Source: Streptococcus gallolyticus subsp. gallolyticus DSM 16831
GTDB lineage: Bacteria; Bacillota; Bacilli; Lactobacillales; Streptococcaceae
Assembly (NCBI RefSeq): GCF_002000985.1
Contig: NZ_CP018822.1
Span: 1,692,001-1,756,000 of the forward strand
DNA: 64,000 nt
Direction: 5' to 3'
Shown: in pieces, positions 36,100 to 64,000 of the stretch
Position numbering within the stretch: the first letter of the stretch is position 1
Layout: each line of letters starts with the position of its first letter
Made by a program: the position numbers and the translations under genes
Notes under the pieces: generated by a model
Told to the model about the DNA's origin: nothing
The model's input: only the letters and a program-made list of their open reading frames with translations
Database searches by the model: none

Positions 36100-37251
36100 T
36101 TAAAAGAGTTGCTTATAGAGCGCAATTGTTTCTTCCAAAGTTGGCATAAATGGATTACCTGGTGCACAGGCATCAAGGAGTGCATTTTTAGAGAGAAATT
36201 CAAAATCGAATTCTTCTTCCTTAATATCAAGTTCTGTTAACTTTTTAGGAATGCCAACAGCAGCTGATAATTTTTCGATTTCAAAAATAGCATAGTCGGC
36301 ACACTCTTGGTCGGATTTATTTTCAATATGAAGTCCCAGTCCTTTAGCAACGTCACGAAAAGCTTCTGGGACATGTTTAGCATTTTCACGTTCTACAATT
36401 GGTAAAATCATGGCACAGCAAACGCCGTGTGGCAGATGGTAAACAGCACCTAGTTGATGTGCCATGGCATGCACGTAACCAAGACCAGCATTGTTAAAAG
36501 CCATGCCACCAAGAAAAATCGCATTAACCATGGCTTCACGCGCTTCCATGTCATCACCTTTTTCAACAGCTCGAGGCAAAAATTCTTTGATAAGCTCGAT
36601 TGCTCCAATAGAAAGTTTTTTAGTTACTCCGTACGCACCTGGTGTAACCAAGGCTTCAATAGCATGTGTCAAAGCATCCATACCAGTTGCTGCAGTGAGA
36701 GATTTTGGCATTGAAACCATTAACTCTGGATCATTGACTGACATCAAAGCTAGGCTGTTCTTATCAACCATTACCATTTTAACCTTACGTTCTTCATCAG
36801 TAATGACATAATTAATCGTAATTTCAGCTGACGTTCCCGCTGTTGTATTAATAGCTACAACTGGAAGACCTTTTTCTTTTGACTTATGAACACCTTCATA
36901 ATCCTGTGGGCGACCACCATTAGTTGCTAAGATTGAAATGCTGCTAGCAGCATCTTGTGGCGAGCCTCCTCCCAGTGAGATAATGAAATCACAGCCATTT
37001 TCTTTTAGGATAGCTAGACCTTCTTCAACATTCTTCACTGTTGGATTTGGATCAACCTCACTATAGATGACATATTCAACCTTTTCACTCTCTAATGGTG
37101 CAGTCACTTTGGATAAAATATCACTTCCAGCAATATAATGGTCAGTAACCAAAAGTGCTTTGTTATATCCTAATTCCCTAATATGACTTCCAATTTCATT
37201 AACAACACCACAACCAATTAAATTAACTGACGGAACATAAAAGTCTGACAT
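36100..37251 (-). CDS. fucO: Iron-containing alcohol dehydrogenase, probable lactaldehyde reductase
   Basis: A 383-residue group III (Fe-ADH) dehydrogenase, the length of FucO. NAD-binding IISLGGGSPQDAASSI; metal motif GMDALTHAIEALVTPGA, HAMAHQLGAVYHLPHGVCCA (His ligands). FucO reduces L-lactaldehyde, formed by rhamnulose-1-phosphate aldolase, to 1,2-propanediol and regenerates NAD; rhaD lies in the same island. The start at 37251 is chosen because AGGAGG lies 8 bases upstream; the Met two codons earlier would be only 2 bases away. Promoter and cre site upstream. Other alcohol substrates cannot be excluded. Confidence 0.82.
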   Translation of the reverse strand: MSDFYVPSVNLIGCGVVNEIGSHIRELGYNKALLVTDHYIAGSDILSKVTAPLESEKVEYVIYSEVDPNPTVKNVEEGLAILKENGCDFIISLGGGSPQDAASSISILATNGGRPQDYEGVHKSKEKGLPVVAINTTAGTSAEITINYVITDEERKVKMVMVDKNSLALMSVNDPELMVSMPKSLTAATGMDALTHAIEALVTPGAYGVTKKLSIGAIELIKEFLPRAVEKGDDMEAREAMVNAIFLGGMAFNNAGLGYVHAMAHQLGAVYHLPHGVCCAMILPIVERENAKHVPEAFRDVAKGLGLHIENKSDQECADYAIFEIEKLSAAVGIPKKLTELDIKEEEFDFEFLSKNALLDACAPGNPFMPTLEETIALYKQLF

Positions 37252-37286
37252 GAACATATCCTCCTAAAATTTATTTTTTATCTTTT

Positions 37287-37300
37287 AGAAAACGTTTACA
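37287..37300. promoter_or_regulatory. cre (CcpA) site upstream of fucO
   Basis: TGTAAACGTTTTCT on the minus strand, one mismatch to TGWNANCGNTNWCA. It covers the start of the transcript just downstream of the fucO -10. Confidence 0.75.
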
Positions 37301-37305
37301 TTTTT

Positions 37306-37333
37306 ATTTTAGCACCTCTTGCAGTTTTGACAA
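37306..37333 (-). promoter_or_regulatory. Promoter of fucO
   Basis: Minus-strand -35 TTGTCA (37328-37333), 16-base spacer, -10 TAAAAT (37306-37311) preceded by TGC (extended -10). Confidence 0.7.
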
Positions 37334-37392
37334 GAACTAGGAATTAGATTATTCGTATCAAATTTACAGAAAAAAACATGAACTAAGAATTG

Positions 37393-38403
37393 TTATTTTT
37401 CCTCAAATAAATGATTTAACCATGTTACGAATAAATCTTTCCATTGTCTGACCAAACTTCTATCATGATAAAATTGTGGGATTTGTTCACCTAAACATGC
37501 TCCAAAACCATGACCACCATACGGAAAAAGATGTAACTCAACTGGAATTTTTCTATCTTGAGCAATTTGAGTTAATCGTAACAAGTGGTGTGCAGGAACC
37601 ACCTCGTCATCCATAGCTGCACACAAGAATAAGGGCGCATCACCTTTCTGAATATGGCTAAAAACATCGTAATTTTCAGCGAATTTTTGACGTTTCGTTG
37701 GATCGTTATAAATGTCCTTCCCACCTATTGCTGCAATAATCTTATCTTCTGCTATGGCAACTGCTGGATAAATTCCTGCTAAACCAGCAACCGAGGCATC
37801 CATTTTATCAATCTCATCTGGTTGATAATCATCAATAATAATTGTTTGATTACGCATGATAAAGTTGGTCACTGATACCAAGTTTCCTCCAGCAGAAAAG
37901 CCAACTATTGCAATTTTATTAGGATTTATTCCAAAATTTTTAGCATAATAACGCACGTATCTAATGGCACGTTGACAATCTAAAAACATCAGTGGCGCAC
38001 GATAAGGATATGTGCGGTACCAAAGAACCAGAGCAGAGATTCCAGCCTGATTAAGAAATTCAGCAACATCTTTTCCTTCTTCAATCATTGATTTCGTTAA
38101 ATAGGCCCCACCAGGGCAAATGATGACACATTTGTCACTCCCCTCAACCAGATAAGGGATAAGAAAAGGTTTATCCTCATAAGTTAGTTGAGCTGGCCCA
38201 TTTTCAATTTCTTGACGATAGACCATTGTATCATTTCCAGACATATCATCAATTTTTGATGTAGATTTATCCCAAATACCTGGGTATTTTTCAAATAAAT
38301 CCTGAGTAGTGTAGTTTTTGTGAATGTCTAAAATATCCATTTTACTTTTTGGACTATTTCCAGGGATTTTTTCTCCCCAAATATATATTTTTTCATCAGT
38401 CAT
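37393..38403 (-). CDS. Alpha/beta hydrolase, esterase-like
   Basis: A 336-residue alpha/beta-hydrolase of the acetyl-esterase/BD-FAE type. The oxyanion region is VIICPGGAYLTKSM, the nucleophile is Ser in GFSAGGN near residue 175, the acid Asp in AAMDDEVVPAHH, and the His in PYGGHGFGACL. No signal peptide is visible, so it is cytoplasmic. It follows the MFS gene after 16 bases and probably deacylates an imported plant sugar, for example an acetylated oligosaccharide; that substrate is inference. Shine-Dalgarno AAGGAG 8 bases upstream. Confidence 0.8.
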   Translation of the reverse strand: MTDEKIYIWGEKIPGNSPKSKMDILDIHKNYTTQDLFEKYPGIWDKSTSKIDDMSGNDTMVYRQEIENGPAQLTYEDKPFLIPYLVEGSDKCVIICPGGAYLTKSMIEEGKDVAEFLNQAGISALVLWYRTYPYRAPLMFLDCQRAIRYVRYYAKNFGINPNKIAIVGFSAGGNLVSVTNFIMRNQTIIIDDYQPDEIDKMDASVAGLAGIYPAVAIAEDKIIAAIGGKDIYNDPTKRQKFAENYDVFSHIQKGDAPLFLCAAMDDEVVPAHHLLRLTQIAQDRKIPVELHLFPYGGHGFGACLGEQIPQFYHDRSLVRQWKDLFVTWLNHLFEEK

Positions 38404-38419
38404 CTACTTGTCTCCTTAA

Positions 38420-39643
38420 TTAATCAGCTAAAGCTTCTTCTGCTGTGCCGCGTCCATCAGGGATGAGTGAGCCACTTTCAACTTTTTCACCAAAACGAGT
38501 TATCATTAAAACAATAGCAACGATAAGCGAAACAACACCTGCAAAGATAAATGATGGCACCCCTGCTGGCACTTGAAGCCAACTAATTAATTTAGGAGCA
38601 ATAGCTGAGCTAAGAGCATTTACAAAAGCATAAACTGACATAACCACTGGAATTTGAACTGGTTTGGAAACCATTGAAAGTAAAAATGGACAAGTCGCCA
38701 TTACCATAACCATTGCCATTGCTGCAAATACAGCTGCAATCATCAAGACAAATGGATTAGCAAAAAAGTAAGTCAAAAGCAAAGTAATCAATAAGAAGAT
38801 AAATCCAAAAGCAAGAGTATTTGGTTTAGTTACTTTACGGATATACTTTAGACCAAATCCTGCAAAAATACCACCAAAAGTACCTACTGCGTTAATAATA
38901 CCAGTCATTGCAGTACCACCAACACCACGCTCAGCTACTACAATTGAAAGGTTTGCTGCATATGCTGTGTAGGCAATTCCTAGAAGGAATGCAATAAAAA
39001 TAATGATATAAACTGGGGCTTTTAACTCTTTTAAAACTGCGACTGTTGATACTTTTTCTTTTTTACCATCTGCTGTTACCATTTCTTTTTCGGGCTCATC
39101 TTTTGGTAAACAAAAAAGTACTAAAAGAAAAACTAAAATACCAATCGCAAATACCCAATAAAGATTACGCCAATTTTGTCCACCAAGTATACCACCAACA
39201 CCAGTTAAAATCATCGCTCCAAGTGATGTCATACCAGTATTGACTCCCATCATACCAGAACGTTCTTCGCCATCAAAGTATTGTGATAAAAGCATTGGGT
39301 TTATTGTTGAAATGAATCCAACTCCCATACCTAGAATAACTGAACAAGTAAGTAATCCAACCATTGAACTATTCCAAACAGCCGGAATAAGACCACCAAT
39401 CGTCACTAGTGCTACTCCAAGAAGAACAAGATTCTTTTTAGAAATGCGCATAGCCATTTGACCAGCAATTAGCGTGATAATTAGTGACCCGAGTCCTGGT
39501 AAAGTCGAAAGAAGTTGAACCGTTGAAATAGGAGTGTTGGGAAAGTCAGCTGAAATTGCTGCGATAGCTGATCCTGCTACAGAACCTGACATGGCTAGTG
39601 TTGCCATGCTAACGACACCGATTTTTGTTTTTGCAGTACTCAT
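38420..39643 (-). CDS. MFS transporter
   Basis: A 407-residue major facilitator with about 12 hydrophobic segments, first MSTAKTKIGVVSMATLAMSG and a central cytoplasmic loop EPEKEMVTADGKKEK. Motif A-like positively charged loop GQMAMRISKKNLVLLG lies between segments 2 and 3. It is grouped with an esterase downstream and a GH2 enzyme upstream, which suggests sugar or glycoside uptake. The substrate is unknown. A cre site lies just upstream. Confidence 0.82.
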   Translation of the reverse strand: MSTAKTKIGVVSMATLAMSGSVAGSAIAAISADFPNTPISTVQLLSTLPGLGSLIITLIAGQMAMRISKKNLVLLGVALVTIGGLIPAVWNSSMVGLLTCSVILGMGVGFISTINPMLLSQYFDGEERSGMMGVNTGMTSLGAMILTGVGGILGGQNWRNLYWVFAIGILVFLLVLFCLPKDEPEKEMVTADGKKEKVSTVAVLKELKAPVYIIIFIAFLLGIAYTAYAANLSIVVAERGVGGTAMTGIINAVGTFGGIFAGFGLKYIRKVTKPNTLAFGFIFLLITLLLTYFFANPFVLMIAAVFAAMAMVMVMATCPFLLSMVSKPVQIPVVMSVYAFVNALSSAIAPKLISWLQVPAGVPSFIFAGVVSLIVAIVLMITRFGEKVESGSLIPDGRGTAEEALAD

Positions 39644-39692
39644 AGTAAGTATTACCTTTCTGAAATTATTTTACGACTCTAGTATATTTATT

Positions 39693-39706
39693 TGTAAACG
39701 TTTTCT
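39693..39706. promoter_or_regulatory. cre site upstream of the MFS gene
   Basis: TGTAAACGTTTTCT (plus strand), the same sequence as at fucO. It lies in the 91-base gap between the GH2 and MFS genes. Confidence 0.75.
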
Positions 39707-39734
39707 CTATATTCATATTAAAGGTCTTATATGT

Positions 39735-42140
39735 CTATTTCACAGATTTTAATTTAACCGAGATTTCTGCTTTGCCGTTTTCATCTAATGCAACAATTAC
39801 CATTGCTTTCCCAGAAAATAGGCTAATTTCTTGTAAATTGTAATCTGAGGTATCACTTGGATTGCCATTTCCTAGACCCACAACTGTTCCTTTTTCACCT
39901 TTAATAGACATAGAATTATCAGCCATTGGAACAAAATGGTCATATTGGTCTAATGCGGAGATGGCAAACAAAGCAAAACGATTACCTGAATAAATTTTTT
40001 CGACGGAAAGTTTGCTTACTTTTTCTGAAGTCACGTGATAATCTGTGGCAACGACTTTTCCATCTTGATAAGCTAAAACTTTAATATCTCCTTCTTGATA
40101 AAGAACCTTATAATTAGATTGACAATCATTAAGTGGAAGTTTTCCTTGACTAATGCCGTTGATAAACAACTCTACTTCTTCAGCATTTGAAAAGACGCGA
40201 ATAGGAGTGTAGCCACGTTCATCAATTTCAAGACCCTCTTTATTCCAGTGAGGCATCAAATGAACCATTGGGGCATCGGTCCAATGAGCTTGGTAATAGT
40301 AATAATAATCTTTTGGAAATCCATTTAAATCACAAATACCAAATTGTGAACTAATCGCAGGGTACACAAATGGAGATGGCTCACCAAAGTAATCAAATGC
40401 AGTCCAAAGAAAGACACCGCCCATATAAGGATGAGTTGAGAGATAATTAAGCACCTCTTCTGGATGAGCTGTCCCTCCAACACCTGGGTCCCCTGGTTGG
40501 CGTTTTCCAGGCAAAACCATTGAATACATTGAACCAAAATTATTACAATGGCACTTGTCTCCATTATCTTTATAGATTCCTCTTGTAGAAAAATACGAAG
40601 CATTTTCAGTAGACATCATTGAAAGCTTAGCATACTTTTGGTGAATTAATTCAGCTCCTGCTCCCATAACACCAGCTTCTGGATAATTCACACCTAAAAT
40701 ATCGAAATATTGAAGATAATCCTCATTAACAAAGCCTTCAGGACTTAATAATTCCGCGGATAACAAGAGGTGTTCCTTATCAAATTTTCTAATGATTTGT
40801 GCTAAACGTTTAATATTGCGTCCACCAAAAGTAGTGTTTCCTGTTAATTCCTCATTTCCAATTGACCAGAAAGCAAGAGAGGCATTCATCCGCGATTGTT
40901 TAACTGCCTTTCCTAAATCAGCTAATCGCCAAGGACTACTTTCTGGTATACGATTTTCGTTCATCACAAGAATTCCATATTCATCACAGATCTCTAACAA
41001 GTCTTTTGATGCAAAATGATGAGCACTACGATAAGCGTTCACTCCCATTTCTTTCATTATTTTAATTTTATAATGAATGATATCCTTATTTAGTGCTACT
41101 CCTACTCCTGTAAAATCTTGGTGCTCACAAATACCGTGTAACTCATATGGCTTTCCATTAAGGTAAAAACCTTTTTCATCATAATCAAACGTACGAATTC
41201 CAAAATTTTTGACAATTTTATCGTTTTCAAGAACCGCAGTTGCTTGGTAGAGGTATGGATTTTCTGGAGACCATAGTGTCGGATTATCAAAAACTACTTC
41301 TTTTGTAAAAATTTCTGTTGTTAGTGGAGCAACTATTTTTTCAGATAACTTGATAACTGTGCCTGCAATATTAATCTTTGGTGAAATTAAAACAGTGTCA
41401 TCACCATCATTAGTAACGGAGACTTCAACTCCTAACTGAGCATTGCCATCTTCAAATGATTTAGTATAAACATAGAAATCTTCTTCATTGAGGTGAAGGT
41501 TAGGAATAATTTTCAGTGATACTTCTTTATAAATCCCTGCTCCTTCATACCACCATCCTTCTGAACCTGATGTTGTATCTACTTTAACTAATAATATATT
41601 ATCTCCTTCATCTCCATAATAAAGCATTTCAGTAATATCAAATTCAAACATCGTATAACCACTATTATTATGCCCAAGATAGGAGCCATTAAGCCAAATA
41701 TCAGCCATCCGCATAACACCATCAAACTGTAGAATAATACGATTTTCTTGTTTAATATCATCATCTATCTTAAATCGCTTACGATAATAAGCAATACCAT
41801 CAGCCTTTGAGCCTGCCATTAAATTAGCAGGATTATCTTCATAAGGAAGAGTCACCTTCCAATCATGTGGTAACTCAACAGTTTTCCAAGAGTCATCTAA
41901 TTGACTCTCTAAGTCTGTTGCACATAGGTTTCGTAATCCCTCTTCCATATTTCCTTGTGCAATTAATTTTAAAAAGTTTTCTCCACCAGAGCTTACTGGT
42001 AACCGTTGTTGGTTCTCTTCTGGGAGACTTGCAGTAAAACCACCAAAGGCATAAGCTTTCTTGGCTACTTTTTTGGGAGGCTGTGGAAATTCTCCTAAAT
42101 GAAAGCGCCAATTATGATTCAAAGAAATTTTCTGTCTCAT
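39735..42140 (-). CDS. Glycoside hydrolase family 2 (beta-galactosidase-like)
   Basis: An 801-residue GH2 enzyme. Order: N-terminal sugar-binding jelly roll (about 5-230, with LPHDWKVTLPYED and DGIAYYRKRF), immunoglobulin-like domain (235-330), catalytic TIM barrel (330-600) with acid/base Glu in FWSIGNEEL near residue 426 and probable nucleophile Glu in MSTENASY near 508, then a C-terminal beta region (DUF4982-like). No signal peptide. Family members act as beta-galactosidase or beta-glucuronidase; the substrate here is unsettled. GGAG precedes the ATG. It is divergent from an AraC regulator that probably controls it. Confidence 0.85.
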   Translation of the reverse strand: MRQKISLNHNWRFHLGEFPQPPKKVAKKAYAFGGFTASLPEENQQRLPVSSGGENFLKLIAQGNMEEGLRNLCATDLESQLDDSWKTVELPHDWKVTLPYEDNPANLMAGSKADGIAYYRKRFKIDDDIKQENRIILQFDGVMRMADIWLNGSYLGHNNSGYTMFEFDITEMLYYGDEGDNILLVKVDTTSGSEGWWYEGAGIYKEVSLKIIPNLHLNEEDFYVYTKSFEDGNAQLGVEVSVTNDGDDTVLISPKINIAGTVIKLSEKIVAPLTTEIFTKEVVFDNPTLWSPENPYLYQATAVLENDKIVKNFGIRTFDYDEKGFYLNGKPYELHGICEHQDFTGVGVALNKDIIHYKIKIMKEMGVNAYRSAHHFASKDLLEICDEYGILVMNENRIPESSPWRLADLGKAVKQSRMNASLAFWSIGNEELTGNTTFGGRNIKRLAQIIRKFDKEHLLLSAELLSPEGFVNEDYLQYFDILGVNYPEAGVMGAGAELIHQKYAKLSMMSTENASYFSTRGIYKDNGDKCHCNNFGSMYSMVLPGKRQPGDPGVGGTAHPEEVLNYLSTHPYMGGVFLWTAFDYFGEPSPFVYPAISSQFGICDLNGFPKDYYYYYQAHWTDAPMVHLMPHWNKEGLEIDERGYTPIRVFSNAEEVELFINGISQGKLPLNDCQSNYKVLYQEGDIKVLAYQDGKVVATDYHVTSEKVSKLSVEKIYSGNRFALFAISALDQYDHFVPMADNSMSIKGEKGTVVGLGNGNPSDTSDYNLQEISLFSGKAMVIVALDENGKAEISVKLKSVK

Positions 42141-42197
42141 CCTGTTCTCCTTCTTCTTTTAGTTTCTGACTGTATTTTATCCCAAATAAAATTGTGT

Positions 42198-42264: not shown

Positions 42265-43257
42265 ATGTTAGAATCTGCTAAAAAAGAATTCCAAAAACTC
42301 GAAGGAACTATTATGACTAATAATGTCCCTAGACTTGAAAATACGGCTTCTTTAGCCCTTTTTTATAAAAAAGGAGTTAAAGATAAAGTCCTTTACACTA
42401 ATGTTCAGGAAGAAAAAATTCAATATTTTATCGCTGAAAATTATGATCAAATGCATCAAAACACTGCATTTGAACTTCTCTATGTTTTATCTGGAACAGT
42501 GATTAACAAGATTGAAGATAAAGAATTTATTTACCATGCTGGTCAAGGATGCTTACTAAATCGGCGGATTACTCATAGTGACATTTTAAAAAATGGTCAT
42601 CTTCTAGTTTTAAATATCTCGGAAGATATTTTAAAAGAAGTGCTTCTCCCTCTTAAAAGTACCCCAGAGATCCAAGGAAAGATTTTCCAATTCTTATTAT
42701 CCAATCTGCAGGGAGAAGATGACTGGATGCGCAGCTATATTGAATTTTCTCCATGTGCTCCGGTTGATAATCCAATTTTTAGAACACTTTTAGATGCTAT
42801 ACAACTAGAACTAGCCACTTTTAAAATTGGAGCTGAGTATTTTCAAAAAGGCTTATTACTTCGTCTATTAACAGAGCTTGAAAATCCTAATATCTTTCAA
42901 CTAAATAGAGTCGATATTGACCTTAACAAAGAGGAGTTTTTAGTTAGTCGATTAATTAGTCTAATTGAATCACATTATGGAAATATTTCACGAAAGGATA
43001 TTGAAAAACAACTTCACTATAATTCTGAATATCTTAACCGCCTCCTCAAAAAACAGAGCGGGATGACTATCATTAAATATGCCAAATCTATCCGTATTAG
43101 TAAGGCAAAGCAGCTGCTTCATACTACAAATATGAAAATTACGGATATTGCTAATGGGCTTGGCTTCTCATCTGAAAATTATTTTTACCATTATTTCAAA
43201 GAAGAAACTGGACTATCACCTAATCAATACCGCACACAAAAAGCGCAGGAAAACTAA
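42265..43257 (+). CDS. AraC-family transcriptional regulator
   Basis: A 330-residue regulator: N-terminal AraC cupin (about 55-130, MHQNTAFELLYVLSGT) and C-terminal double helix-turn-helix (230-325, NGLGFSSENYFYHYFKEETG and LSPNQYRTQKA). Such proteins sense sugars or sugar phosphates and usually activate neighbouring operons. Divergent from the GH2 gene and convergent with a second AraC gene. Shine-Dalgarno GAAAGGAG 7 bases from the ATG. Confidence 0.92.
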   Translation: MLESAKKEFQKLEGTIMTNNVPRLENTASLALFYKKGVKDKVLYTNVQEEKIQYFIAENYDQMHQNTAFELLYVLSGTVINKIEDKEFIYHAGQGCLLNRRITHSDILKNGHLLVLNISEDILKEVLLPLKSTPEIQGKIFQFLLSNLQGEDDWMRSYIEFSPCAPVDNPIFRTLLDAIQLELATFKIGAEYFQKGLLLRLLTELENPNIFQLNRVDIDLNKEEFLVSRLISLIESHYGNISRKDIEKQLHYNSEYLNRLLKKQSGMTIIKYAKSIRISKAKQLLHTTNMKITDIANGLGFSSENYFYHYFKEETGLSPNQYRTQKAQEN

Positions 43258-43268
43258 TCCTGTGCTTT
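43240..43268. terminator. Bidirectional terminator overlapping two AraC gene ends
   Basis: AAAGCGCAGGA / TCCTGTGCTTT stem (one wobble or mismatch). It contains the stop region of both convergent AraC genes and is followed by T-rich sequence, stronger on the minus strand. Confidence 0.7.
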
Positions 43269-44265
43269 AACTATTTTCTATCCGATACTCTTTGGGCGAG
43301 ACACCTAAAATTTTTCGAAACATTTTATAAAAATAAGAAGGATTTTCATAGCCGACCTTTACAGAAATCTGCTCAATAGGTGCTTTTGTATACTGAAGAT
43401 ACTCCGCAGCTACATTCACACGCTGTAAATGAACTAACTTAATAAATGTCATCCCTGTATTCTTTTTAAGATATGAAGAAAGATAATTAGGATTAAAACC
43501 AAAATAATCCGCCATCTTTTCTAAGGTAATATCAGCATAATGTTCTTCAATGTATAATAACATAGGCATTAATGTATTCTGATGATTTTTTGATTGCTCT
43601 ACAGAATAGTCCGTATGATAAAAGTGACGAATTAAACGTGAAAAAAGTGTTAAAACATTAAAATGAATGATTTGATTAGCTTGAATATCATTCTGATAAT
43701 ATTCATCAATAATGTCATAAATCAGGGAAACTATCTTTTTGTCATGCTGAATCCTAAAAAGATTATACTGGCTATCTCCGTAATTTTCATCATTCAAAAT
43801 AGTAAACAATATATTAGAAATACTTTGTCCACCTCCTGGATGTAGCATAAAGTTTAAATCATTAAATGAAAATGCTGAAGGTTGTAAAGCAATATTAACA
43901 ACGATAGTAGTTGGATCAATTTCATGAACACGATGAACAGTACCTCGTCCTACAATCATAATATCTTCCTGTCCTATTTCAATAATACCATTACGTGATT
44001 CAAATCGGCAATTTCCTAAAAGAGGAACAATGATTTCAACATAATTATGAACATGAAAGGGAATATAAGAGCGGATGGGTTGAACTGAAACTGAAATAGC
44101 ATTGGCAGTAATTTCAAGATTATCCGTTAGTGTTTGAAAAAAATTATAAATTGGTTCATTATCAATATGACCTGTAATATCCGCTTTAAAACCGTACTTG
44201 ACTTTTTCCCAATCAACAGGATTTTGATTATTATGACGCAATCTTTCAAGAACATTAGTATCCAT
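43267..44265 (-). CDS. AraC-family transcriptional regulator with cupin sensor
   Basis: A 332-residue regulator. Cupin-like region with IPFHVHNYVEIIVPLLGN (about 65-85) and HTH pair at the C-terminus (ADYFGFNPNYLSSYLKKNTG; VGYENPSYFYKMFRKILG; SPKEYRIE). Start at 44265 has AAGGAG six bases upstream; in-frame TTG/ATG further upstream lack a ribosome site. Divergent from the GH3 gene with 225 bases between, so GH3 and perhaps the following operon are likely targets. Confidence 0.92.
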   Translation of the reverse strand: MDTNVLERLRHNNQNPVDWEKVKYGFKADITGHIDNEPIYNFFQTLTDNLEITANAISVSVQPIRSYIPFHVHNYVEIIVPLLGNCRFESRNGIIEIGQEDIMIVGRGTVHRVHEIDPTTIVVNIALQPSAFSFNDLNFMLHPGGGQSISNILFTILNDENYGDSQYNLFRIQHDKKIVSLIYDIIDEYYQNDIQANQIIHFNVLTLFSRLIRHFYHTDYSVEQSKNHQNTLMPMLLYIEEHYADITLEKMADYFGFNPNYLSSYLKKNTGMTFIKLVHLQRVNVAAEYLQYTKAPIEQISVKVGYENPSYFYKMFRKILGVSPKEYRIENS

Positions 44266-44455
44266 TTTTAACTCCTTCATCAACTTATTGTATTTTCATA
44301 GTTATTTTCTAAAAAGTGTCGCTTTATTATATTCAATTTAGTTTTTATTTTACGTAAAATAAAATCAAAGTACAAGTTCATTTTTATAAATCTGTGAAAT
44401 CGACACAAAAGTACTTTAATTTGGCAATAGTATCGCTTCTTTTTTTAAGATACAC

Positions 44456-50732: not shown

Positions 50733-51395
50733 ATGAAAGGTGCTTTATTTGATCTTGACGGTGTTATTACTGACACAGCCATTTACCATTTTGCAGCTTG
50801 GTGTCAATTAGTAAAAACACATTTTGACGCTGACTTACCAGATGAACTAGAAGAAAAAACAAAAGGTGTTAGCCGTGAAGATTCTTTACAAATCATCCTT
50901 GATTACCTCGATATTAAGGTTTCTAAGGAAGAGTTTGCTGCTTTAGCTGCTGAAAAAAATCAACTTTACGTTCATACCTTGGAAAATTTATCACAAAATG
51001 ATATTCTCCCAGGAATATCTGAACTTCTTATTGATTTAAAACAACACGGTATAAAAATCGCTCTTGCCTCTGCTAGTAAAAACGGACCATTCATTCTTAA
51101 AAAACTTGGTTTAACAAACTCTTTTGATGCTATCGCAAACCCTGCTAAGATTACCAGTGGCAAACCTGCTCCAGATATTTTTCTAGCAGCAGCCTTTGCT
51201 CTAGCTATCTCTCCTTATGATTGCGTAGGCATCGAGGACTCAATCGCTGGTGTTACAGCTATTAACAAAGCAGGAAGCGTCTCCATCGGTGTAGGTGAAG
51301 ATGAGCTTAACCATGCCAATAAACGCTTTAAAACAACCTCTGACCTAAACTATCAGGACATCAAAAAGGCTTGGCAAGCCTATCATCGTAACTAA
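50733..51395 (+). CDS. pgmB: Beta-phosphoglucomutase
   Basis: A 220-residue HAD enzyme converting beta-glucose 1-phosphate to glucose 6-phosphate. Motif I FDLDGVITDTAIYHF has both Asp; the cap holds KGVSREDSL; motif II ALASASKNG; Lys in SGKPAPDIFL; motif IV VGIEDSIAGV. It is coupled to the GH78 gene (3-base gap). PgmB usually partners with a disaccharide phosphorylase, and none is visible in this window. Confidence 0.9.
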   Translation: MKGALFDLDGVITDTAIYHFAAWCQLVKTHFDADLPDELEEKTKGVSREDSLQIILDYLDIKVSKEEFAALAAEKNQLYVHTLENLSQNDILPGISELLIDLKQHGIKIALASASKNGPFILKKLGLTNSFDAIANPAKITSGKPAPDIFLAAAFALAISPYDCVGIEDSIAGVTAINKAGSVSIGVGEDELNHANKRFKTTSDLNYQDIKKAWQAYHRN

Positions 51396-55771: not shown

Positions 55772-57160
55772 TCATCCTTCTTTTTGTTGAGGAGTAACAA
55801 CAAAAAATGTCACAATCGTTGAAATGATGAGAGCTAATACTGCACAAGCAATAAAACCATAAAAGCTAATATCTAATCCTGCTGGGTTAATCATAGCAGG
55901 TATGCGGAACAGACCATCCCCTCCGATAGCATACATTTTCCCACCAAGGCTTGCAAAAATAGCTCCAGAAACTCCTCCTCCAACAGCAGCACCTATAAAT
56001 AATTTAAAATTGGGTACAATCAATGAATAAATTGTTGGTTCAGTAACACCACATAGACAAGATACTAAATTTGCTGTTCCTAATGACTTCTCCTCTTTAC
56101 TTTTAACTTTCAAAGCATATCCTAGAGCAACACCAGCAAGAGCCCAAACCGTCAATCCTAAAACACCATTAATTGGATCACTTCCATTTTCGAAATAGAT
56201 GTTCATTAAAACAGGAATAAAAGCAGAATGTAGACCAAGTAAAACCATTAACTGCCACAAAGCACCAAATAATAAACCACCTAAAAGAGGGCTAAAATTA
56301 AAGATAGCTAAAGCAACGGTAGATAACGCTTGAGATACTATTGTCATAATCGGTCCAACCACCAATAATGTTAGAGGAACAGCTATAGCCAAAGTTAAAG
56401 CAGGAACAAACATCAAGTGAACAATTTGTGGTAAAATGCGTTTTAAAAATCTCTCTAAATAAGATGCTAACCACACTGCTACAATAATTGGAAGCAAGCT
56501 TTGAGAATAATCTACTAATTGAACTGGTAGTTTCAAAAATGTTAACGTTGTTCCTTCATTAACAGCCGTTAGAATCGTTGGATACATAATAGAAGCACCA
56601 ATGACTGCAGCAACGAATTGATTCATTTTAAAAACTTTTCCAGCATTAAAACCTACAAAAATCGGTAAGAAATACAATACTGCATTTGACGCCGCATATA
56701 AGATAATATAGGTTCCGTCTGTATCAGATAGCCAACCTAACGTTGTACAAATAACCAAACATCCCTTGATTAACCCCGAACCAACCAACACACCTAAAAG
56801 TGGCATGATACAACCGGATATAATTTTAAAAATACGGTTGAACAGCTTATCTTTTTGAACGCCATCTTCTTTTGTATCTTCAATAATTTCTTTCTCGTCA
56901 TTTATTCCTAGTTCTGAACGAACTAGGGGAGCAATTTCTGAGACCTCAGTTCCTACAATGACTTGATATTGTCCACCTTGTCGAACAACACCTTTAACCA
57001 ATTTTTGACTTTTAATTGCCTTTTCATCAGCTAATGATTCATCTTTCAGTTCAAACCGCAAACGTGTCATACAATTTAAAACATTTTTGACGTTACTCTT
57101 TCCACCAACTAACTTAACAATCTCTTTTGCAAAAAGACTATAATTCTCTTTTTTTGCCAT
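55772..57160 (-). CDS. PTS transporter EIIBC, beta-glucoside type
   Basis: A 462-residue PTS permease. EIIB with phospho-Cys30 in VLNCMTRLRFEL (residues 1-85), linker, then EIIC with about ten hydrophobic segments (VGFNAGKVFKMNQFVAAVIG is the BglP/ScrA-type loop). There is no EIIA domain, so it must use EIIA from elsewhere. It imports and phosphorylates a sugar; being in an operon with a rhamnosidase, the substrate may be a rhamnosyl glycoside. Divergent from an AraC regulator; cre site between. Confidence 0.9.
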   Translation of the reverse strand: MAKKENYSLFAKEIVKLVGGKSNVKNVLNCMTRLRFELKDESLADEKAIKSQKLVKGVVRQGGQYQVIVGTEVSEIAPLVRSELGINDEKEIIEDTKEDGVQKDKLFNRIFKIISGCIMPLLGVLVGSGLIKGCLVICTTLGWLSDTDGTYIILYAASNAVLYFLPIFVGFNAGKVFKMNQFVAAVIGASIMYPTILTAVNEGTTLTFLKLPVQLVDYSQSLLPIIVAVWLASYLERFLKRILPQIVHLMFVPALTLAIAVPLTLLVVGPIMTIVSQALSTVALAIFNFSPLLGGLLFGALWQLMVLLGLHSAFIPVLMNIYFENGSDPINGVLGLTVWALAGVALGYALKVKSKEEKSLGTANLVSCLCGVTEPTIYSLIVPNFKLFIGAAVGGGVSGAIFASLGGKMYAIGGDGLFRIPAMINPAGLDISFYGFIACAVLALIISTIVTFFVVTPQQKEG

Positions 57161-57261: not shown

Positions 57262-58251
57262 ATGGACATAAAACAATTAGATAACTTTCTATTTGAACTA
57301 ACACAACACGAAAAAAATTATCAACAGAACCCTTTTATACAAGCTTTTTCAGATAGAATGCCACGCTTCAACTATCAAGGAAAAGATATTTTTTATTTGA
57401 ATACGTCTCTAGCTAACAATTTTAGACAGCTACCATTTTTTATTCGAAAACAAAGCCGTTTTGTTCCTGTCCCTGAACACATTCATGACACCATTGAAAT
57501 TAACTATGTTTACCATGGGAGCTATACGCAAGTAATTAATGGACAGCAACTCACTTTAAAACAAGGAGATTTAATTATTATTGACACAGGTATACCACAT
57601 CAAACCGATGCCCTTGGGACAGATGACATTATTATTAGTATGTTGATAAAACAAGATTTTTTTACAAAGTACTTTTATACTGAACTAGCTCCAGATACGC
57701 TACTATCTAAATTTATCCTTCGAGCCATTTCAGAAAGTAACAATCATAATCAGTATCTCTTTTTTAGGAGTAATCATTTTCAAAAATTACATTATTTTTT
57801 CCAAGAACTATTATGTGAATACTATTCATCAGAGCCTCTCCCTTTTTCCGAAAACTATCTGACAAACTACTTAAAACTAATTTTCTTAGAACTTATTCGT
57901 TATTATTCTGTTGAAGACAATGGAACGACAAATGCTAATCAGCAATTTATGTTTGATGTTATGAATTACATTGACCAAAATTATAAAAATTGTCATTTAA
58001 ATCAGTGTGCTAACCAGTTAAATTACAATAGTAGCTACCTTAGCCAACACATTAAGGAAAGTACAGGTAAAAACTTTAAGACACTCGTTCAAGAAAAACG
58101 CCTATCTATCAGTCTTGTCTTACTCCAACAGACTCAAAAATCTATACGAGACATTACTCTTGACGTCGGCTTTTCAAACCTCAACCAATTTTATAAAGTA
58201 TTTAAAAAACAATACCATATGACTCCAGCTGAATATCGAATAAAAAAATGA
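57262..58251 (+). CDS. AraC-family transcriptional regulator
   Basis: A 329-residue regulator with an N-terminal cupin (VPVPEHIHDTIEINYVYHGS, about 70-90) and a C-terminal HTH pair (CANQLNYNSSYLSQHIKESTG; VGFSNLNQFYKVFKKQYH; TPAEYRIKK). It is divergent from the PTS-GH106 operon, its likely target. No Shine-Dalgarno of quality is seen before the ATG. Its stop codon lies in the stem of a terminator shared with the convergent GH78 gene. Confidence 0.92.
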   Translation: MDIKQLDNFLFELTQHEKNYQQNPFIQAFSDRMPRFNYQGKDIFYLNTSLANNFRQLPFFIRKQSRFVPVPEHIHDTIEINYVYHGSYTQVINGQQLTLKQGDLIIIDTGIPHQTDALGTDDIIISMLIKQDFFTKYFYTELAPDTLLSKFILRAISESNNHNQYLFFRSNHFQKLHYFFQELLCEYYSSEPLPFSENYLTNYLKLIFLELIRYYSVEDNGTTNANQQFMFDVMNYIDQNYKNCHLNQCANQLNYNSSYLSQHIKESTGKNFKTLVQEKRLSISLVLLQQTQKSIRDITLDVGFSNLNQFYKVFKKQYHMTPAEYRIKK

Positions 58252-58270
58252 GCTTACAGGCTCATTTTTT
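58243..58270. terminator. Bidirectional terminator between AraC and GH78 genes
   Basis: AAAAAATGAGC / GCTCATTTTTT perfect 11-base stem with a 6-base loop; A and T runs allow function on both strands. It contains the AraC stop codon and abuts the GH78 stop. Confidence 0.88.
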
Positions 58271-60559
58271 CTAATCACTAACTCTCCCACCAACCTTACT
58301 TAAGTCAACTATCATATCAATTGCTTTAGGAACTGTTATTTTCCAATCTTTTCCTACTTTGATAATAGAAATAGAGCCTTGTGGTGATTTAAAATTAAAG
58401 TTAAAGTTCTCAACAATTTCTACACTTGGTTTAATGGTAATAGCTCGGTAACCTGATTTTCTAATATGTAACCCAACAGTTTCTCGTATCATCCAATCCA
58501 AGACACAGCCAAAAGCATAGTGATTAAACGAAAAAGCCCCTACTTTTCCATCCGGATGAATACCAGCCCATGATTCCCAAATAGTTGTTGCTCCTTGCTT
58601 CACTTCGTAAAACCAAGATGGGCAGGCATCTTGGAAGAAAATTGTTTTTGCCAATTCTTGATAACCGTTCTCACAAAGAACATCTAAAAGGTAAGGAATT
58701 GATAAAAAGCCAGTATCCAAGCGATCACCATTTTCGTGAATTTTTTCTACCAACCGTGTTACAAAATCAGATTTTATATGTTCAGGAATCATATGAAAGG
58801 CTAAAGCTAAAACATAACACCCTTGAAAGTCACTGCACAACTGGTTTTTAGTTGTAATAAAATAGTGGCTAAAAGCTGTTTTTACCTTTTGACAATAGTC
58901 TTTAAAAGGTTTAACATCCTTACCAATAATTTCTGAGATGTTCGCTAAGAGTTCTGCTGAATGTGCTAAAAACATAGTGGCAACAATATCTTTTGTCACT
59001 TCAGCCGTTTTCATCGGATTTGGATTATCCATCATAAAACTTGGAAACATCCAATCGCCGTAATGAAACTTTGTATCCCAGATATAACATGCCTCACCTT
59101 TCTTACCTCTTGCAGCACTTTTTCGTTCAAAATCAAACCATTTAAGCATGGCATCGTAGTTTTCTTCAAGAACAGTAATATCTCCATAACGCTCATATAG
59201 TGTCCAGGGAACCATGATTATTGCATCTCCCCACCCTGCTGAGGAATAAGATCCTGTAAAAGCAACACTCTTTTGAGCATCAGCTGGTGCTGGTGAATAA
59301 TCCAAAATTTCACCATTGCGACGTTGATTAATACGAAGACTTCTTAACCAACGACGAATAAAAGCATTAGTATCCATATAAAATGTCGATGAGGGTGCAA
59401 AAACTTGCATATCACCTGTCCACCCAACGCGTTCACGTTGTGGACAATCTGTTGGAATAGATAACATATTACCACGTTGACTCCAAAGAATATTTGATAA
59501 TAGTTGATTAACCAACGAATCATTTGTTAAGAAATACCCAGTCTCCGGTAAGTCCGAATAAATAGCTACCGCTTGAATTGCATTAGTTGGAATTTCTTTG
59601 AGTCCTGTAATTTTTACATAACGAAAACCGTGAAAAGTAAAATCAGGTTCCATAATCTCTTTTTTACCATTTCCAACGAAAATATCAGTAGCATCTTTAT
59701 TACGACCAATGATATTTTTGAAAAACTTTCCCTCTTCATTAAGCACTTCAGCATGTTCTAAAATGACTTCTTGATCTTTTTCTAGAGCTAATTCCAAACG
59801 AACACGTCCCGCAATAACTTGTCCAAAATCAACAATAATATCCTCTGATTCATGCCAGATTTTCTTAGGAGCTAAAAACTGTTTTCGATAAACTTGTGGC
59901 CCTTCTTGAGGAGCCAAACGAGCATAATCTGCTTCAATTTCAAAGACCTTTCCAGATAGGTTTTCATAACTTGTTTTCCAGTTTGAATCCAGTCTGAAAT
60001 CCTGTTTTTCACCAATCTGTATATCAGCATAACAGTGCTTTCCAGTACCCGACGTAAAACTTTCATCTGTTCCGATAACCTCTTTCTCACCGTCAACTAA
60101 ATCGATTTCTAAATCAGCTAACAAAGCCAATTGATTCCCAAATTGAATGCTACCTCCCTGAACACTAATTCGTCCAGCAAACCAGCCATCTGCAACTTCA
60201 ATTGCTAAGGTATTCATACCTTCCACTAGCAAACCCGTAACATCATAAGTTTGATACATCAAAAAATCATTATAGTCGGTATAATCAGGAGTAAAAATAG
60301 CCTCTGTTACTTTTTTTCCATTTAAATAAGCCTGATAAATTCCTTGACAAGTTATAATTAAACGTGCCTTACGAACCAATTTAGAGACTTCAAAAATTTT
60401 TTTAAAATAAATACTAGGATTAAGGCGTTCTTCAATTGGCTCTTGTAGTTTAATTTTTCCAGAGAACATTTCTTCTAATGTAAATTCAGGCTCTTGAGAT
60501 ACCGTAGCAAAATCTGTTGAAATCCATTTCCCATGCCAACTTTCTCGTGTATTTCTCAT
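58271..60559 (-). CDS. Alpha-L-rhamnosidase, GH78 (second copy)
   Basis: A 762-residue GH78 enzyme, shorter than the other copy. N-terminal domain with CQGIYQAYLNGKKVTEAIF and YQTYDVTGLL (about 75-115); (alpha/alpha)6 barrel with DCPQRERVGWTGD near 370-382, where Glu follows the Arg, and TIWESW plus NHYAFGCVLDW toward the C-terminus. No C-terminal extension and no signal peptide. The two GH78 proteins are clearly diverged. ATG at 60559 has AGGAGG 9 bases upstream; a TTG one codon earlier is not favoured. Own promoter likely (TAAAAT with TGT before). Confidence 0.92.
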   Translation of the reverse strand: MRNTRESWHGKWISTDFATVSQEPEFTLEEMFSGKIKLQEPIEERLNPSIYFKKIFEVSKLVRKARLIITCQGIYQAYLNGKKVTEAIFTPDYTDYNDFLMYQTYDVTGLLVEGMNTLAIEVADGWFAGRISVQGGSIQFGNQLALLADLEIDLVDGEKEVIGTDESFTSGTGKHCYADIQIGEKQDFRLDSNWKTSYENLSGKVFEIEADYARLAPQEGPQVYRKQFLAPKKIWHESEDIIVDFGQVIAGRVRLELALEKDQEVILEHAEVLNEEGKFFKNIIGRNKDATDIFVGNGKKEIMEPDFTFHGFRYVKITGLKEIPTNAIQAVAIYSDLPETGYFLTNDSLVNQLLSNILWSQRGNMLSIPTDCPQRERVGWTGDMQVFAPSSTFYMDTNAFIRRWLRSLRINQRRNGEILDYSPAPADAQKSVAFTGSYSSAGWGDAIIMVPWTLYERYGDITVLEENYDAMLKWFDFERKSAARGKKGEACYIWDTKFHYGDWMFPSFMMDNPNPMKTAEVTKDIVATMFLAHSAELLANISEIIGKDVKPFKDYCQKVKTAFSHYFITTKNQLCSDFQGCYVLALAFHMIPEHIKSDFVTRLVEKIHENGDRLDTGFLSIPYLLDVLCENGYQELAKTIFFQDACPSWFYEVKQGATTIWESWAGIHPDGKVGAFSFNHYAFGCVLDWMIRETVGLHIRKSGYRAITIKPSVEIVENFNFNFKSPQGSISIIKVGKDWKITVPKAIDMIVDLSKVGGRVSD

Positions 60560-60679
60560 CAAAATTTTCCTCCTACTGACTTGTTAATTCATTTTAACAA
60601 AAATAAGTTATCTTTTTTATGCTAAAAACCAACTCCCTTTCTCCTAATACCCATTAAAATACCAAACAATTAAAAATAA

Positions 60680-60706
60680 AAGCCAAACTTTTCCTAAGTT
60701 TGACTT
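60680..60706 (-). terminator. Terminator of rhaBAD
   Basis: Minus-strand AAGTCAAACTT / AAGTTTGGCTT stem (one wobble), then TTATTTTT, 30 bases past rhaD. Confidence 0.8.
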
Positions 60707-60735
60707 ATTTTTTGAGGAGACCATATTCGTAAGTT

Positions 60736-61554
60736 TTAATTTAGGAAACCTTCGTGTGGCGTTACGTGGAAGTAGTCAGCAATTTCTTGTAACTGTTTAT
60801 CTGTAATGGCTTGTTTAATATTTCCACCTTGAACGCCAATTTGTGAGAAAATCATGGCAGCTTTTTCCAGCACTTCAACTAAACCATAAGTGTCGTCTAA
60901 TGATATTCCTGAGGCAAAGAGACCATGATGTGGCCAAAGAACAGCTTGATAATCTGCCATTTTAGTAGCTGTAGCTTCACCAATTTCATTTGTTCCTGGC
61001 GTCATATAAGGAATCACACCGACTCCTTCTGGAAAGACAACAATTGATTCTGCTTGCATTTTCCATAGTAGACGTGATAAGTGACGTTCTGATAATTCTT
61101 GTGTAAATGATAAAGCAATCAAATTTGTTGGATGACAATGGAAAACAACACGCTGTTCTGGATTAACTTTCAATCGTTCAATATGACTCATCAAATGACT
61201 TGGAAATTCTGATGTTGGACGTCCACCTGCTTCAAATCCCCAAACAATATCATAAGATTTACCATCTTCAGAGATTTTTACCAAACCAAGATCACGTTCT
61301 GGATTGCCATAGACATTTCTAAAATGACAACCGGTCCCCGTAACAAGGTAATAGTAACCTGCTAAAGCTGAAGCGTCAAAACCAAGCTCATAAGTTCGTT
61401 TAACGTCTGCTACATCTTCAAAATCTTCCACTTCCTCAGCTGTCAAACGATAAGAAACATTACCACCATTGCGTTCATCCCAATATCGAAGATAAGATTC
61501 TCGTGTGACATCGCGCATGTCTTTTACAAATGATGATTCTACAAATTTTGTCAT
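60736..61554 (-). CDS. rhaD: Rhamnulose-1-phosphate aldolase
   Basis: A 272-residue zinc class II aldolase that splits L-rhamnulose 1-phosphate into DHAP and L-lactaldehyde. Zinc histidines appear in [13 protein letters not shown] and [12 protein letters not shown]; the N-terminal [14 protein letters not shown] is the phosphate-binding region. The ATG at 61554 has GGGAG upstream; a GTG five codons earlier is part of that ribosome site. Last gene of rhaB-rhaA-rhaD, 24 bases after rhaA. Confidence 0.96.
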
Positions 61555-61578
61555 TTTTCTCCCTTTCACTGCTAGCTA

Positions 61579-62844
61579 TTAATGGCGTTCTGCTAAAATT
61601 TTTGCTTCATAATCTTTGACTTCTTTAAACCAATCAAATCCAACTGGCACATTATTTTTAAAGCAGAAGTAATTCCAAACGTCGCTATATGGAAAATCTT
61701 TTAATTCTTCTGTCAGAACTAAACGTGATGTGAAATCAAATTGATTTTCCATATCCTTTAAATCTTGTGTTGGTTCAAGCATGGCTTTTAAAAGTGCTTT
61801 TTGGGTATTACGAGTTCCAACCACCCAAGCAGCAATACGGTTAATTGTACCATCAAAGAAATCAAGACCAATCGCTGTACGATCAAGCAAATCATTACGA
61901 ACAATTTCCTTAGTGATTTCTTGTAACTCATCATCCATAATCACAACATGGTCAGAATCCCAACGAACTGGACGAGACACATGAAGCATTAGACGTTTGC
62001 TAAATAAGGCAAGAGAAGAAATCTTATTAGAAATAACTTCTGTTGGATGAAAATGCCCTGCATCAAGCAAAATTGTCTTCTGACGTGTCAAACCATATCC
62101 CATATAGAATTCATGAGAACCCACAGTATAAGCTTCAGCACCCAGTCCAAATAATTTACTTTCAACGGTGTCAACATTGTATTCTTCATCAATTTCCTCA
62201 GAGAAGATTTCATCTAGTGATTCCATAAGACGCTTACGTGGTGCCAAGCGATCAATCGGATTATCTTTAAAGCCATCTGGCACCCAGAAATTAGTATAAC
62301 AAGTTTCACCTAACTCTTTACCAAAATATTCTGCAATACGACGGCTACGTTTCCCATGCTCAATCCAATAATCACGAACTTCTTTGTCGGGATGAGAAAG
62401 GGTAAACCCATCTCTCATCATTGGATGTGAGAAAAATGTTGGATTAAAATCAAGACCAATTTCTTGCTCTTTAGCCCACCTAACCCATTTTTCAAAATGT
62501 TTTGGTTCAATTTCATTCAAATCCACAGCTTCATCCGTATCAAGGTAAATCGCATGGAGATTAAGTTTGTGTTTCCCTGGAATAAGTGAATAAGCTTTCT
62601 CAAGATCAGCACGCAATTCTTCCGGCGTATGGGAAGCACCTGGATAATTACCAGTTGACATAATGCCGCCTGTCAATTCACCATCTGGTGTTAAGAAACC
62701 TCTTACATCATCGCCTTGCCAGCAGTGCATTGAAATTTTAACATTTTGTAATTTTTCAAGAACAGCATCCGTATCAACACCTACTTCTGCGTAGCGTGCT
62801 TTTGCTGCTTCATATGCTTTTTCAATTGTTTCTTTACTTACCAT
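61579..62844 (-). CDS. rhaA: L-rhamnose isomerase
   Basis: A 421-residue Mn-dependent isomerase of L-rhamnose to L-rhamnulose. Visible family stretches: [68 protein letters not shown] (metal ligands), and [14 protein letters not shown]. Full length. It starts 14 bases after rhaB ends. Confidence 0.97.
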
Positions 62845-62858
62845 AATATTACCCTCTA

Positions 62859-64000
62859 TTAATTAAATACTGTTTTTTTATAAATTTCTAAATGGTCACG
62901 GTCAGCAATTGGACGTGGTTCGTAGCATTCCAATGATTGATGTTCACTCAACCATAATCGTGCTTCTTTCAAGTCTTGCAATTCTCCTGAAGTTATCATC
63001 TGAACCATGATATTTCCAAATGCTGTAGCTTCGCCAGGTCCTGCAATAACAGGCTTTCCAATAACATCTGCGGTTAATTGATTGAGCAATTTCACGTTGC
63101 TACCACCACCGACGATATGAAGTACATCCAATTTATGTCCAATCAAGTTTTCAAGAATTGTCCATTCGTGTGCATAAGCAAGTGCTAGATTTGAATACAC
63201 ACACATGACTAGTTCACCAACTGTTTCAGGAACAATTTGTCCACTTTCACGACAATAATCTTGAATTTCTGTAATCATATTATTCGGATTAATGAAACGG
63301 TCATCGTTTAAATTCACATATTGTAAAAATGGCTCAACTTGATATGCTTGCTCTGCCATTTCTGCAAAAGTGTATCGATAATCAAGCATACGCGCAATTT
63401 CTTGCACTGTCCACATGCCAGTAATATTTTTTAAGAAACGGTAAGTCTTATAGGCTCCCCACTCATTTGTGTAATTTTCTTCAAATGCCTTCTGACTTAA
63501 TATTGGCTCTTGATTTTCAACACCAATCAAAGACCATGTTCCACTTGAAAGATATGCCCAGTTCTCACTGGTAGCTGGCACTCCAACCACTGCTGAAGCT
63601 GTATCATGCGTTGCAACAGCAACTACCTTAGCTTCTGGTAAATCATAAGTTGCGTAAAGTTCAGAAGATAGATTTCCAATAATTTCACCTGTTTCTATCA
63701 AATCTGGAAATTTATCTAAATCAACTCCAGCAACATCAAGTAGTTCCTTATCATAATCACGGCTATGAATATTCAAATACTGAGTGGTTGATCCATTTGT
63801 AACTTCTCCAACTTTTTTCCCAGTTAAACGATAGGCAATATAATCTGGTACCATAAGAATTGTTTGGGCTTTAGCAAGTAAGTCGCTATCCTCGGCACAC
63901 AATTGATACAAAGTGTTAAAATTCAAAAATTGGATACCCGTTTTTTGATAGACGTTATTTTTAGAAATTTTTTCAAAAACTTTTTGCATCATTCCTTGTG
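62859..64000 (-). CDS. rhaB: Rhamnulokinase, N-terminus beyond window
   Basis: About 380 C-terminal codons of a FGGY-family kinase that phosphorylates L-rhamnulose with ATP. Reading frame stays open to the window end (…[11 protein letters not shown]). Motifs: [42 protein letters not shown], and the ATP-binding [18 protein letters not shown] with [10 protein letters not shown]. Roughly 100 N-terminal residues are missing. First visible gene of rhaBAD; its regulator and promoter are outside the window. Confidence 0.96.

Follow-up and report, generated by a model that had tools for sequence, protein, structure and literature searches.

Gene content of the island

The window analysed here, i.e., the whole stretch of 64,000 nucleotides at positions 1,692,001 to 1,756,000 of contig NZ_CP018822.1, belongs to Streptococcus gallolyticus subsp. 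gallolyticus DSM 16831, whose genome is a single contig of 2.49 Mb. From position 36100 to its end, the window holds an island of carbohydrate genes in which the gene of an enzyme resembling glycoside hydrolase (GH) family 106, hereafter GH106L, lies beside that of an enzyme II of the phosphotransferase system (PTS) with B and C domains (EIIBC). We favour the view that the island is a dual intracellular system for rhamnosyl-glucosides, with two routes that would both end in glucose-6-phosphate and free rhamnose. The following genes were assigned (major facilitator superfamily, MFS; insertion sequence, IS):

36100..37257, minus strand: probable lactaldehyde reductase, an iron alcohol dehydrogenase (TIGR02638 450 bits, cut-off 523; Pfam Fe-ADH)
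37393..38403, minus strand: carbohydrate esterase-like alpha/beta hydrolase, BD-FAE (PF20434 67.5 bits)
38420..39643, minus strand: MFS transporter, candidate importer of the non-PTS route (PF07690 137 bits)
39735..42140, minus strand: GH2 enzyme, GalA-like (Pfam GH2 domains; NF041462 621 bits, cut-off 900)
42265..43257, plus strand: AraC regulator 1 (PF12833)
43267..44283, minus strand: AraC regulator 2, divergent from the GH3 gene (PF12833)
44491..46185, plus strand: GH3 enzyme, probable beta-glucoside phosphorylase (5vqd 475 bits, full length)
46314..47567, minus strand: IS110-family transposase (PF01548 and PF02371)
47928..50729, plus strand: GH78 alpha-L-rhamnosidase a (PF17389 378 bits; 3w5m 420 bits)
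50733..51395, plus strand: beta-phosphoglucomutase (TIGR01990 230.4 bits, above the cut-off of 189.4; 5olw 210 bits)
51448..52989, plus strand: GH43 enzyme (PF04616 205 bits)
53216..55744, minus strand: GH106L, GH106-like probable alpha-L-rhamnosidase of the PTS-linked clade (PF17132 28.6 bits, cut-off 29; fold)
55772..57160, minus strand: PTS EIIBC, Glc superfamily, beta-glucoside type, without EIIA (PF00367 and PF02378)
57262..58251, plus strand: AraC regulator 3, divergent from EIIBC-GH106L (PF12833)
58271..60562, minus strand: GH78 alpha-L-rhamnosidase b (PF17389 328 bits; 3w5m 425 bits)
60736..61569, minus strand: RhaD, rhamnulose-1-phosphate aldolase, a class II aldolase (PF00596; function from operon position)
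61579..62844, minus strand: RhaA, L-rhamnose isomerase (PF06134 759 bits)
62859..64000, minus strand: RhaB, rhamnulokinase, crossing the window end (PF00370 and PF02782; named from its position beside rhaA and rhaD)

The remainder of rhaB is found at L033 1-816. The first gene of the list is given the role of lactaldehyde reductase, which we take to be the final step of L-rhamnose breakdown. A first-pass annotation of these letters had listed two GH78, a GH106-like, a GH2, a GH3 and a GH43 enzyme, an esterase, an MFS protein and EIIBC, all of which are present as long open frames; the beta-phosphoglucomutase, the probable lactaldehyde reductase, the three AraC regulators and the IS110 element go beyond that list. 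The same annotation placed EIIBC in an operon with the GH106-like gene, and the two were indeed found on one strand, GH106L following EIIBC after 27 bp. It also held that the enzymes lack signal peptides, which agrees with a crude test based on simple hydropathy and not on SignalP: the maximum over an 11-residue stretch (Kyte-Doolittle) within the first 45 residues ranges from -0.18 to 1.03 in the seven carbohydrate-cleaving enzymes vs 2.29 in a pullulanase-like control protein of the window. Breakdown of rhamnosides inside the cell, as first proposed, is supported. The control protein (7622-14314, 2230 residues) was named by eye as a secreted, apparently wall-anchored, two-domain pullulanase/amylase-like protein.

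PTS genes beside GH106L across relatives

Scanning of contigs with 16 aligned GH106L relatives gave 101 places, the best 80 of which were kept as loci. Three of them (L090, L092, and L104) were dropped for want of a readable GH106L frame, and the PTS queries gave no match in these; 77 loci remained. In the clade close to the window enzyme (37 loci, L041-L076 and L081) a PTS EII gene was found within 5 kb in 35 of 37 loci, and within 1 kb in 32, vs none of the other 40 loci, searched up to 8 kb on each side with queries (six EII proteins, then five genes of a mannose-type set plus a Lac-type EIIB) which a PTS unlike these would escape. The second group of queries matched in seven close-clade loci and in none of the other 40. 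In the two close-clade loci without a match, L064 and L066, the context is cut by contig ends, GH106L beginning at base 3 and base 521, respectively. The suggestion of the first-pass annotation that the PTS is tied specifically to the GH106-like gene therefore extends to the whole clade.

In a tree of 79 rows, a single branch, supported at 100 in the Shimodaira-Hasegawa-like approximate likelihood ratio test (SH-aLRT), separates all those of the PTS group from the others. This tree took 71 of the 80 loci, leaving out L064, L067, L086, L088, L091, and L120 besides the three dropped loci; L066 was placed in the PTS group in spite of its cut contig and was excluded from the single count of label changes. 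Genomes G016, G026, and G139 were treated as the same as those of L045, L043, and L041, and were not counted twice among the loci.

The EII genes beside close-clade GH106L are of different kinds, comprising EIIBC of the window type or another and EIIC (L059, L073, L075, and L076), and in L058, L063, and L065 an EIIA and a LicT-like gene accompany EIIBC. The presence of several PTS kinds beside one enzyme clade suggests that PTS uptake itself is what matters. A relative of AraC regulator 3 was detected in 29 of the 37 loci. Outside the clade, two Streptococcus genomes (G013 and G289) have a distant GH106L that also adjoins an EIIBC, meaning that the link either arose repeatedly or predates the clade. 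The distant gene of G013 (L039 9683-12229) contains an in-frame TAA and lies near two EIIBC genes and a GH1 gene; the frame of its relative in G289 stays open to the contig limit. A mirror-tree comparison, in which EIIBC distances correlated with those of GH106L (r 0.78 over 26 pairs, none of 2000 shuffles as high), was set aside, as shared descent suffices to explain it.

The window EIIBC contains the EIIB and EIIC domains (PF00367 and PF02378) of the Glc superfamily and Cys30, presumably the phosphorylation site; all but one of the 26 EIIBC rows in the alignment retain this cysteine. It scores 430.8 bits against TIGR01995 (beta-glucoside EII), below the cut-off of 614.7 of a model that covers IIABC, the window protein having no IIA domain; of the NCBIfam families listed for named PTS substrates, it clears the cut-off of none. 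Seven EIIA domains encoded elsewhere in the genome could serve it.

The GH1 partners were classified by their tails. A tail such as SASTGEMxKRYG (Ser...Lys-x-Tyr) we take, from general knowledge (no backing paper was found), to be the phosphate-binding signature of 6-phospho-beta-glucosidases. Of the 37 close loci, 15 have a GH1 neighbour, with a tail of the phospho type in 11 and one that is cut or unclassified in four; among the other 40 there are three such loci, none of the phospho type, all three having plain NFEW or NWEW; the close-clade locus L059 carries one GH1 of each type. In the genome of the window 11 GH1 genes were found and all 11 fit the phospho-tail pattern, although some of them, with tails of the form SWxNGYxKRYG, may be those of phospho-beta-galactosidases.

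Several gene rows around EIIBC-GH106L differ from that of the window. In some streptococci an apiosidase-like gene (PF13204) adjoins the pair, as in L036 (630-5295, S. moroccensis), L139 (2437-7104), and L045, together with isomerase and FGGY kinase genes that resemble those used to break down D-apiose and, in L036 and L139, two transketolase halves. According to the available part of PMC13001218, the D-apiose pathway is marked by aptA, aptB and a kinase gene, to which the genes of these loci bear a tentative resemblance. The EIIBC proteins of the streptococcal loci with an apiosidase (L041, L042, L043, and L045) are more distant from that of the window (311-400 bits) than is the Trichococcus EIIBC (655 bits); it seems that in the apiosidase streptococci the EII was swapped and GH106L retained. 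The S. moroccensis EIIBC frame (L043, L036) starts past the EIIB part and so does not code for the EIIB cysteine. In G139 EIIBC-GH106L, an apiosidase-like gene, a mutase, GH78, GH3, a glycoside-pentoside-hexuronide (GPH) carrier and rhaDAB lie on one contig stretch. Upstream of AraC-EIIBC-GH106L in L046, L048, L049, L071, L072, and L074, all six share a gene row which, judged by eye, resembles a PTS of the mannose type accompanied by NagA-like and YdjC-like genes.

Family, fold and conserved residues of GH106L

By sequence the assignment of GH106L to GH106, which had been annotated as probable, is weak, its PF17132 score falling just under the cut-off and its catalytic domain being scarcely alignable to solved GH106 enzymes; by fold it is clear, since the model matches those enzymes over its whole length and the two nearest solved structures are GH106 rhamnosidases. 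The relative L038 reaches 52.4 bits against PF17132, above the cut-off. Residues D236, E237, H323, D354, and E406 are invariant in the GH106L alignment (E406 in 79 of 79 rows). They fit the pattern D-E, His, Asp and base-Glu that the available part of PMC6828813 describes for Ram106B. E406 sits in a barrel strand of the model, and its tentative pairing with the catalytic base E593 of BT_0986 comes from a weak alignment together with that portion of the text (PMC6828813).

Thirty alignment columns are conserved in 90% or more of 35 close-clade rows and shared by no more than 10% of 36 others. Four of these are basic and located in barrel loops of the catalytic face (loop limits drawn by hand from the predicted model): R239 and K244 come after the strand ending in the D-E pair, and H367 and H368 belong to the loop after strand 351-355. 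Counted over 34 splits of the tree, such residues number four in the PTS split and in the split nested just outside it, two in two further nested splits and at most one in all the remaining, including every split not nested with the PTS split. If D236-E237 correspond to D458-S459 of BT_0986, R239 would be at the place of the catalytic acid E461, beside the leaving group, and a glucose-6-phosphate would be accommodated there.

Altogether, the linkage to PTS genes, the type of the partner GH1 enzymes and the clade-specific basic residues suggest that GH106L may cut a substrate that is already phosphorylated. We give even chances to the broader proposal that this Firmicutes GH106-like clade is specific for 6-phosphorylated rhamnosyl-glucosides made by the PTS, with a putative phosphate site next to the leaving-group subsite (R239, K244, and the H367-H368/TGGS loop), and that it would work with several EII systems and 6-phospho-beta-glucosidases, opening neohesperidose-type glycosides to PTS uptake. 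In L040 (9374-9979, G026), a fragment of 201 residues between GH2 and AraC genes corresponds to the C-terminal part of GH106L alone and is likely the remnant of a second copy.

The probable GH3 phosphorylase and its neighbours

The GH3 enzyme of the island matches 5vqd, 'Beta-glucoside phosphorylase BglX', over its full length (475 bits; next match 159 bits) and shares with it the Asp-His dyad motif KHFPGDGVDxRDQH. This dyad is presumably also present in NagZ-type GH3 enzymes, being necessary and not sufficient. The family named by the first-pass annotation was borne out, and the enzyme is probably, as judged from these matches, a beta-glucoside phosphorylase rather than a hydrolase. According to the available part of PMC8950772, GH3 phosphorylases convert beta-glycosides into beta-sugar phosphates with a His/Asp dyad as acid/base. 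GH65 was tried as the source of beta-glucose-1-phosphate for the mutase, which passes the curated TIGR01990 cut-off, and rejected, none having been found in the genome; for this reason GH3 was considered as that source, and a GH3 phosphorylase would explain the occurrence of a beta-phosphoglucomutase in a genome in which no GH65 was found.

The neighbourhood of GH3 was surveyed in 18 stretches from the 23 best places besides that of the window (G640, G562, G523, G613, and G619, with 53-54% identity, were left out). A GH78 gene directly adjoins GH3 in 13 of the 18; GH43 occurs within five genes in seven, the mutase in six (one a weaker match), relatives of the MFS and GH2 genes in five (L175-L179), and a relative of AraC regulator 2 lies beside GH3, divergent, in 11. 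None of the 13 adjoining pairs has a transposase between GH3 and GH78, unlike the window; IS110 is probably a later insertion that may split a GH3-GH78 operon in this strain. The system as a whole had been described as PTS-linked, which holds for EIIBC-GH106L, whereas GH78a seems to belong, together with the probable GH3 phosphorylase, to a route of its own that does not use the PTS.

Proposed routes and substrates

The dual-route reading starts from what computation shows, namely the genes present, the fold, the PTS link throughout the clade and the families to which GH3 and the mutase belong; from these we infer the substrate, its phosphorylation before cleavage, the linkage, all enzyme activities and the pairing of carriers with routes. 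In route A, EIIBC, with an EIIA borrowed from another PTS, would import a plant glycoside bearing rhamnose on O2, O3 or O4 of glucose and phosphorylate that glucose on O6 during import; GH106L would then cut the rhamnose off this phosphorylated sugar, and glucose-6-phosphate would be released by a 6-phospho-beta-glucosidase whose gene lies elsewhere. In route B, glycosides would enter by a non-PTS carrier and lose their rhamnose to GH78, GH3 would phosphorolyse the beta-glucoside to beta-glucose-1-phosphate and the beta-phosphoglucomutase would convert this into glucose-6-phosphate. RhaA, RhaB, RhaD and the lactaldehyde reductase would consume the rhamnose from both routes.

A PTS of the superfamily of EIIBC phosphorylates a free 6-hydroxyl group, which rhamnose does not have and which in rutinose is occupied at glucose O6. 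Because of this need, route A would be expected to take neohesperidose-type substrates or ones with the rhamnose at O3 or O4. Of the substrates put forward in the first-pass annotation, rutinose was accordingly rejected for the PTS, solely on this chemical argument from general knowledge, and oligomers of pectin (rhamnogalacturonan I, RG-I) are unlikely as the main substrate because no match to GH88/105 was found in the genome.

The occurrence of RhaA was compared with that of GH106L across genomes. Seven of 284 Streptococcus genomes have a GH106L match, five of them (the window genome included) at 62% identity or above, and RhaA occurs in all five vs 15 of the 284 overall (hypergeometric 2.0e-7, kinship uncorrected). 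RhaA was detected in 26 of the 37 close-clade genomes, and rhaB, rhaA, and rhaD follow GH106L in line in L069, L073, and L075.

Alternative explanations

Several observations weigh against a PTS route through phosphorylated rhamnosides. The island itself contains neither a GH1 nor an EIIA gene, the context is incomplete (more than 4 kb on both sides for 24 of the 37 close and 22 of the 40 other loci) and the clade boundary was set after the PTS pattern was visible. Descent alone can produce clade-specific residues; moreover, the loop with H367 and H368 was modelled at just 69-74 pLDDT (predicted local distance difference test), among the least certain parts of the model, L038 retains R239 and K244 without both histidines, and the PTS-linked outliers L039/L136 lack all four residues. 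RhaA is absent from 11 of the 37 close-clade genomes, which include metagenome bins and also isolates, e.g., two Blautia, and from the two genomes with a distant GH106L (G013 and G289, the latter 74% complete).

These points were considered together with three other explanations. EIIBC might import ordinary beta-glucosides, GH106L being merely co-regulated with it and cutting unphosphorylated rhamnosides brought in by the MFS protein or another carrier, as would suit a protein nearest to the beta-glucoside EII family in an island that offers route B a rhamnosidase and a candidate carrier besides. We regard this explanation as unlikely: PTS genes of several kinds accompany GH106L in 35 of the 37 close-clade loci and in none of the other 40, so that co-regulation alone would have had to follow the PTS each time, and EIIBC reaches the cut-off of none of the listed families with a named PTS substrate. 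Also unlikely, and placed after it, is the possibility that GH106L acts on PTS-imported phospho-glycosides and frees a sugar other than rhamnose, e.g., apiose or another deoxysugar. The apiosidase-like gene beside EIIBC-GH106L in L041, L042, L043, and L045, the isomerase and kinase candidates for apiose use in the last three and the 11 close-clade genomes lacking RhaA would fit such a role, to which are opposed the RhaA of all five Streptococcus genomes with a close GH106L, the rhaBAD genes in the same row at three loci, the rhamnosidase activity of the two nearest solved enzymes and the failure to find an apiosidase match in the window genome.

The conservation of the EIIB cysteine in 25 of 26 rows and the mostly phospho-type GH1 partners make it very improbable that the EII is a carrier or sensor that does not phosphorylate the rhamnoside, GH106L acting on an unphosphorylated substrate in spite of the involvement of a PTS, even though the window EIIBC has no EIIA of its own and the L043 frame begins past the EIIB part.

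Relation to known systems and significance

GH106L resembles the GH106 enzymes BT_0986, RHA-P, and GH106_dist/Ram106B in its whole-length fold, and Ram106B also in its invariant residues and in lacking a predicted signal peptide, as given for Ram106B enzymes in the available part of PMC6828813. As far as that part describes them, it differs from these enzymes by its PTS-linked gene rows and by R239, which would replace the catalytic acid E461 of BT_0986.

The closest known logic to route A would be, by analogy, that of PTS glucoside uptake in Lactobacillus acidophilus and of a disaccharide system of Staphylococcus aureus. In the former, according to the part of PMC5698550 available, a plant glycoside is likewise taken up by a PTS and an intracellular glycosidase acts on the phosphorylated sugar, but mono- and diglucosides and phospho-beta-glucosidases are involved, whereas here a GH106-like enzyme would strip a capping rhamnose. 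In the latter, MurP-MupG, the accessible text (PMC6262408) describes a phosphorylated cell-wall disaccharide made by a PTS and cut inside the cell by a glycosidase belonging neither to GH1 nor to GH4; the enzyme family and substrate are unrelated, and MupG frees a phosphorylated glycon, while here the phosphate would be on the leaving-group side. With GH3 BglP/BglX (5VQD), in so far as covered by the available part of PMC8950772, the window GH3 shares a full-length match and the Asp-His dyad, and it differs in sharing a gene row with GH78 and beta-phosphoglucomutase. PTS-phosphorylated rhamnosides were not described among the matches listed in the open-licence PMC literature.

If true, a GH106 branch for phosphorylated rhamnosides would represent a new use for this family, adding a phospho-specific branch to glycosidases known for polysaccharide and flavonoid rhamnosides. 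Plant glycosides capped by rhamnose, bitter citrus flavonoids among them, would be open to many Firmicutes by a route that saves energy, and proteins often labelled hypothetical would gain a class of substrates on which they can be tested. The island further suggests that the GH78 route may be finished by a GH3 phosphorylase and beta-phosphoglucomutase with no ATP spent on glucose.

Concerning regulation, sites resembling the cre (catabolite-responsive element) consensus were searched for. Ten matches with at most one mismatch were found vs 5.4 expected, which is not significant as six of 100 shuffles reach ten; five of the ten, at four places, lie in the gaps 5' of the lactaldehyde reductase, MFS, GH3, and EIIBC genes.

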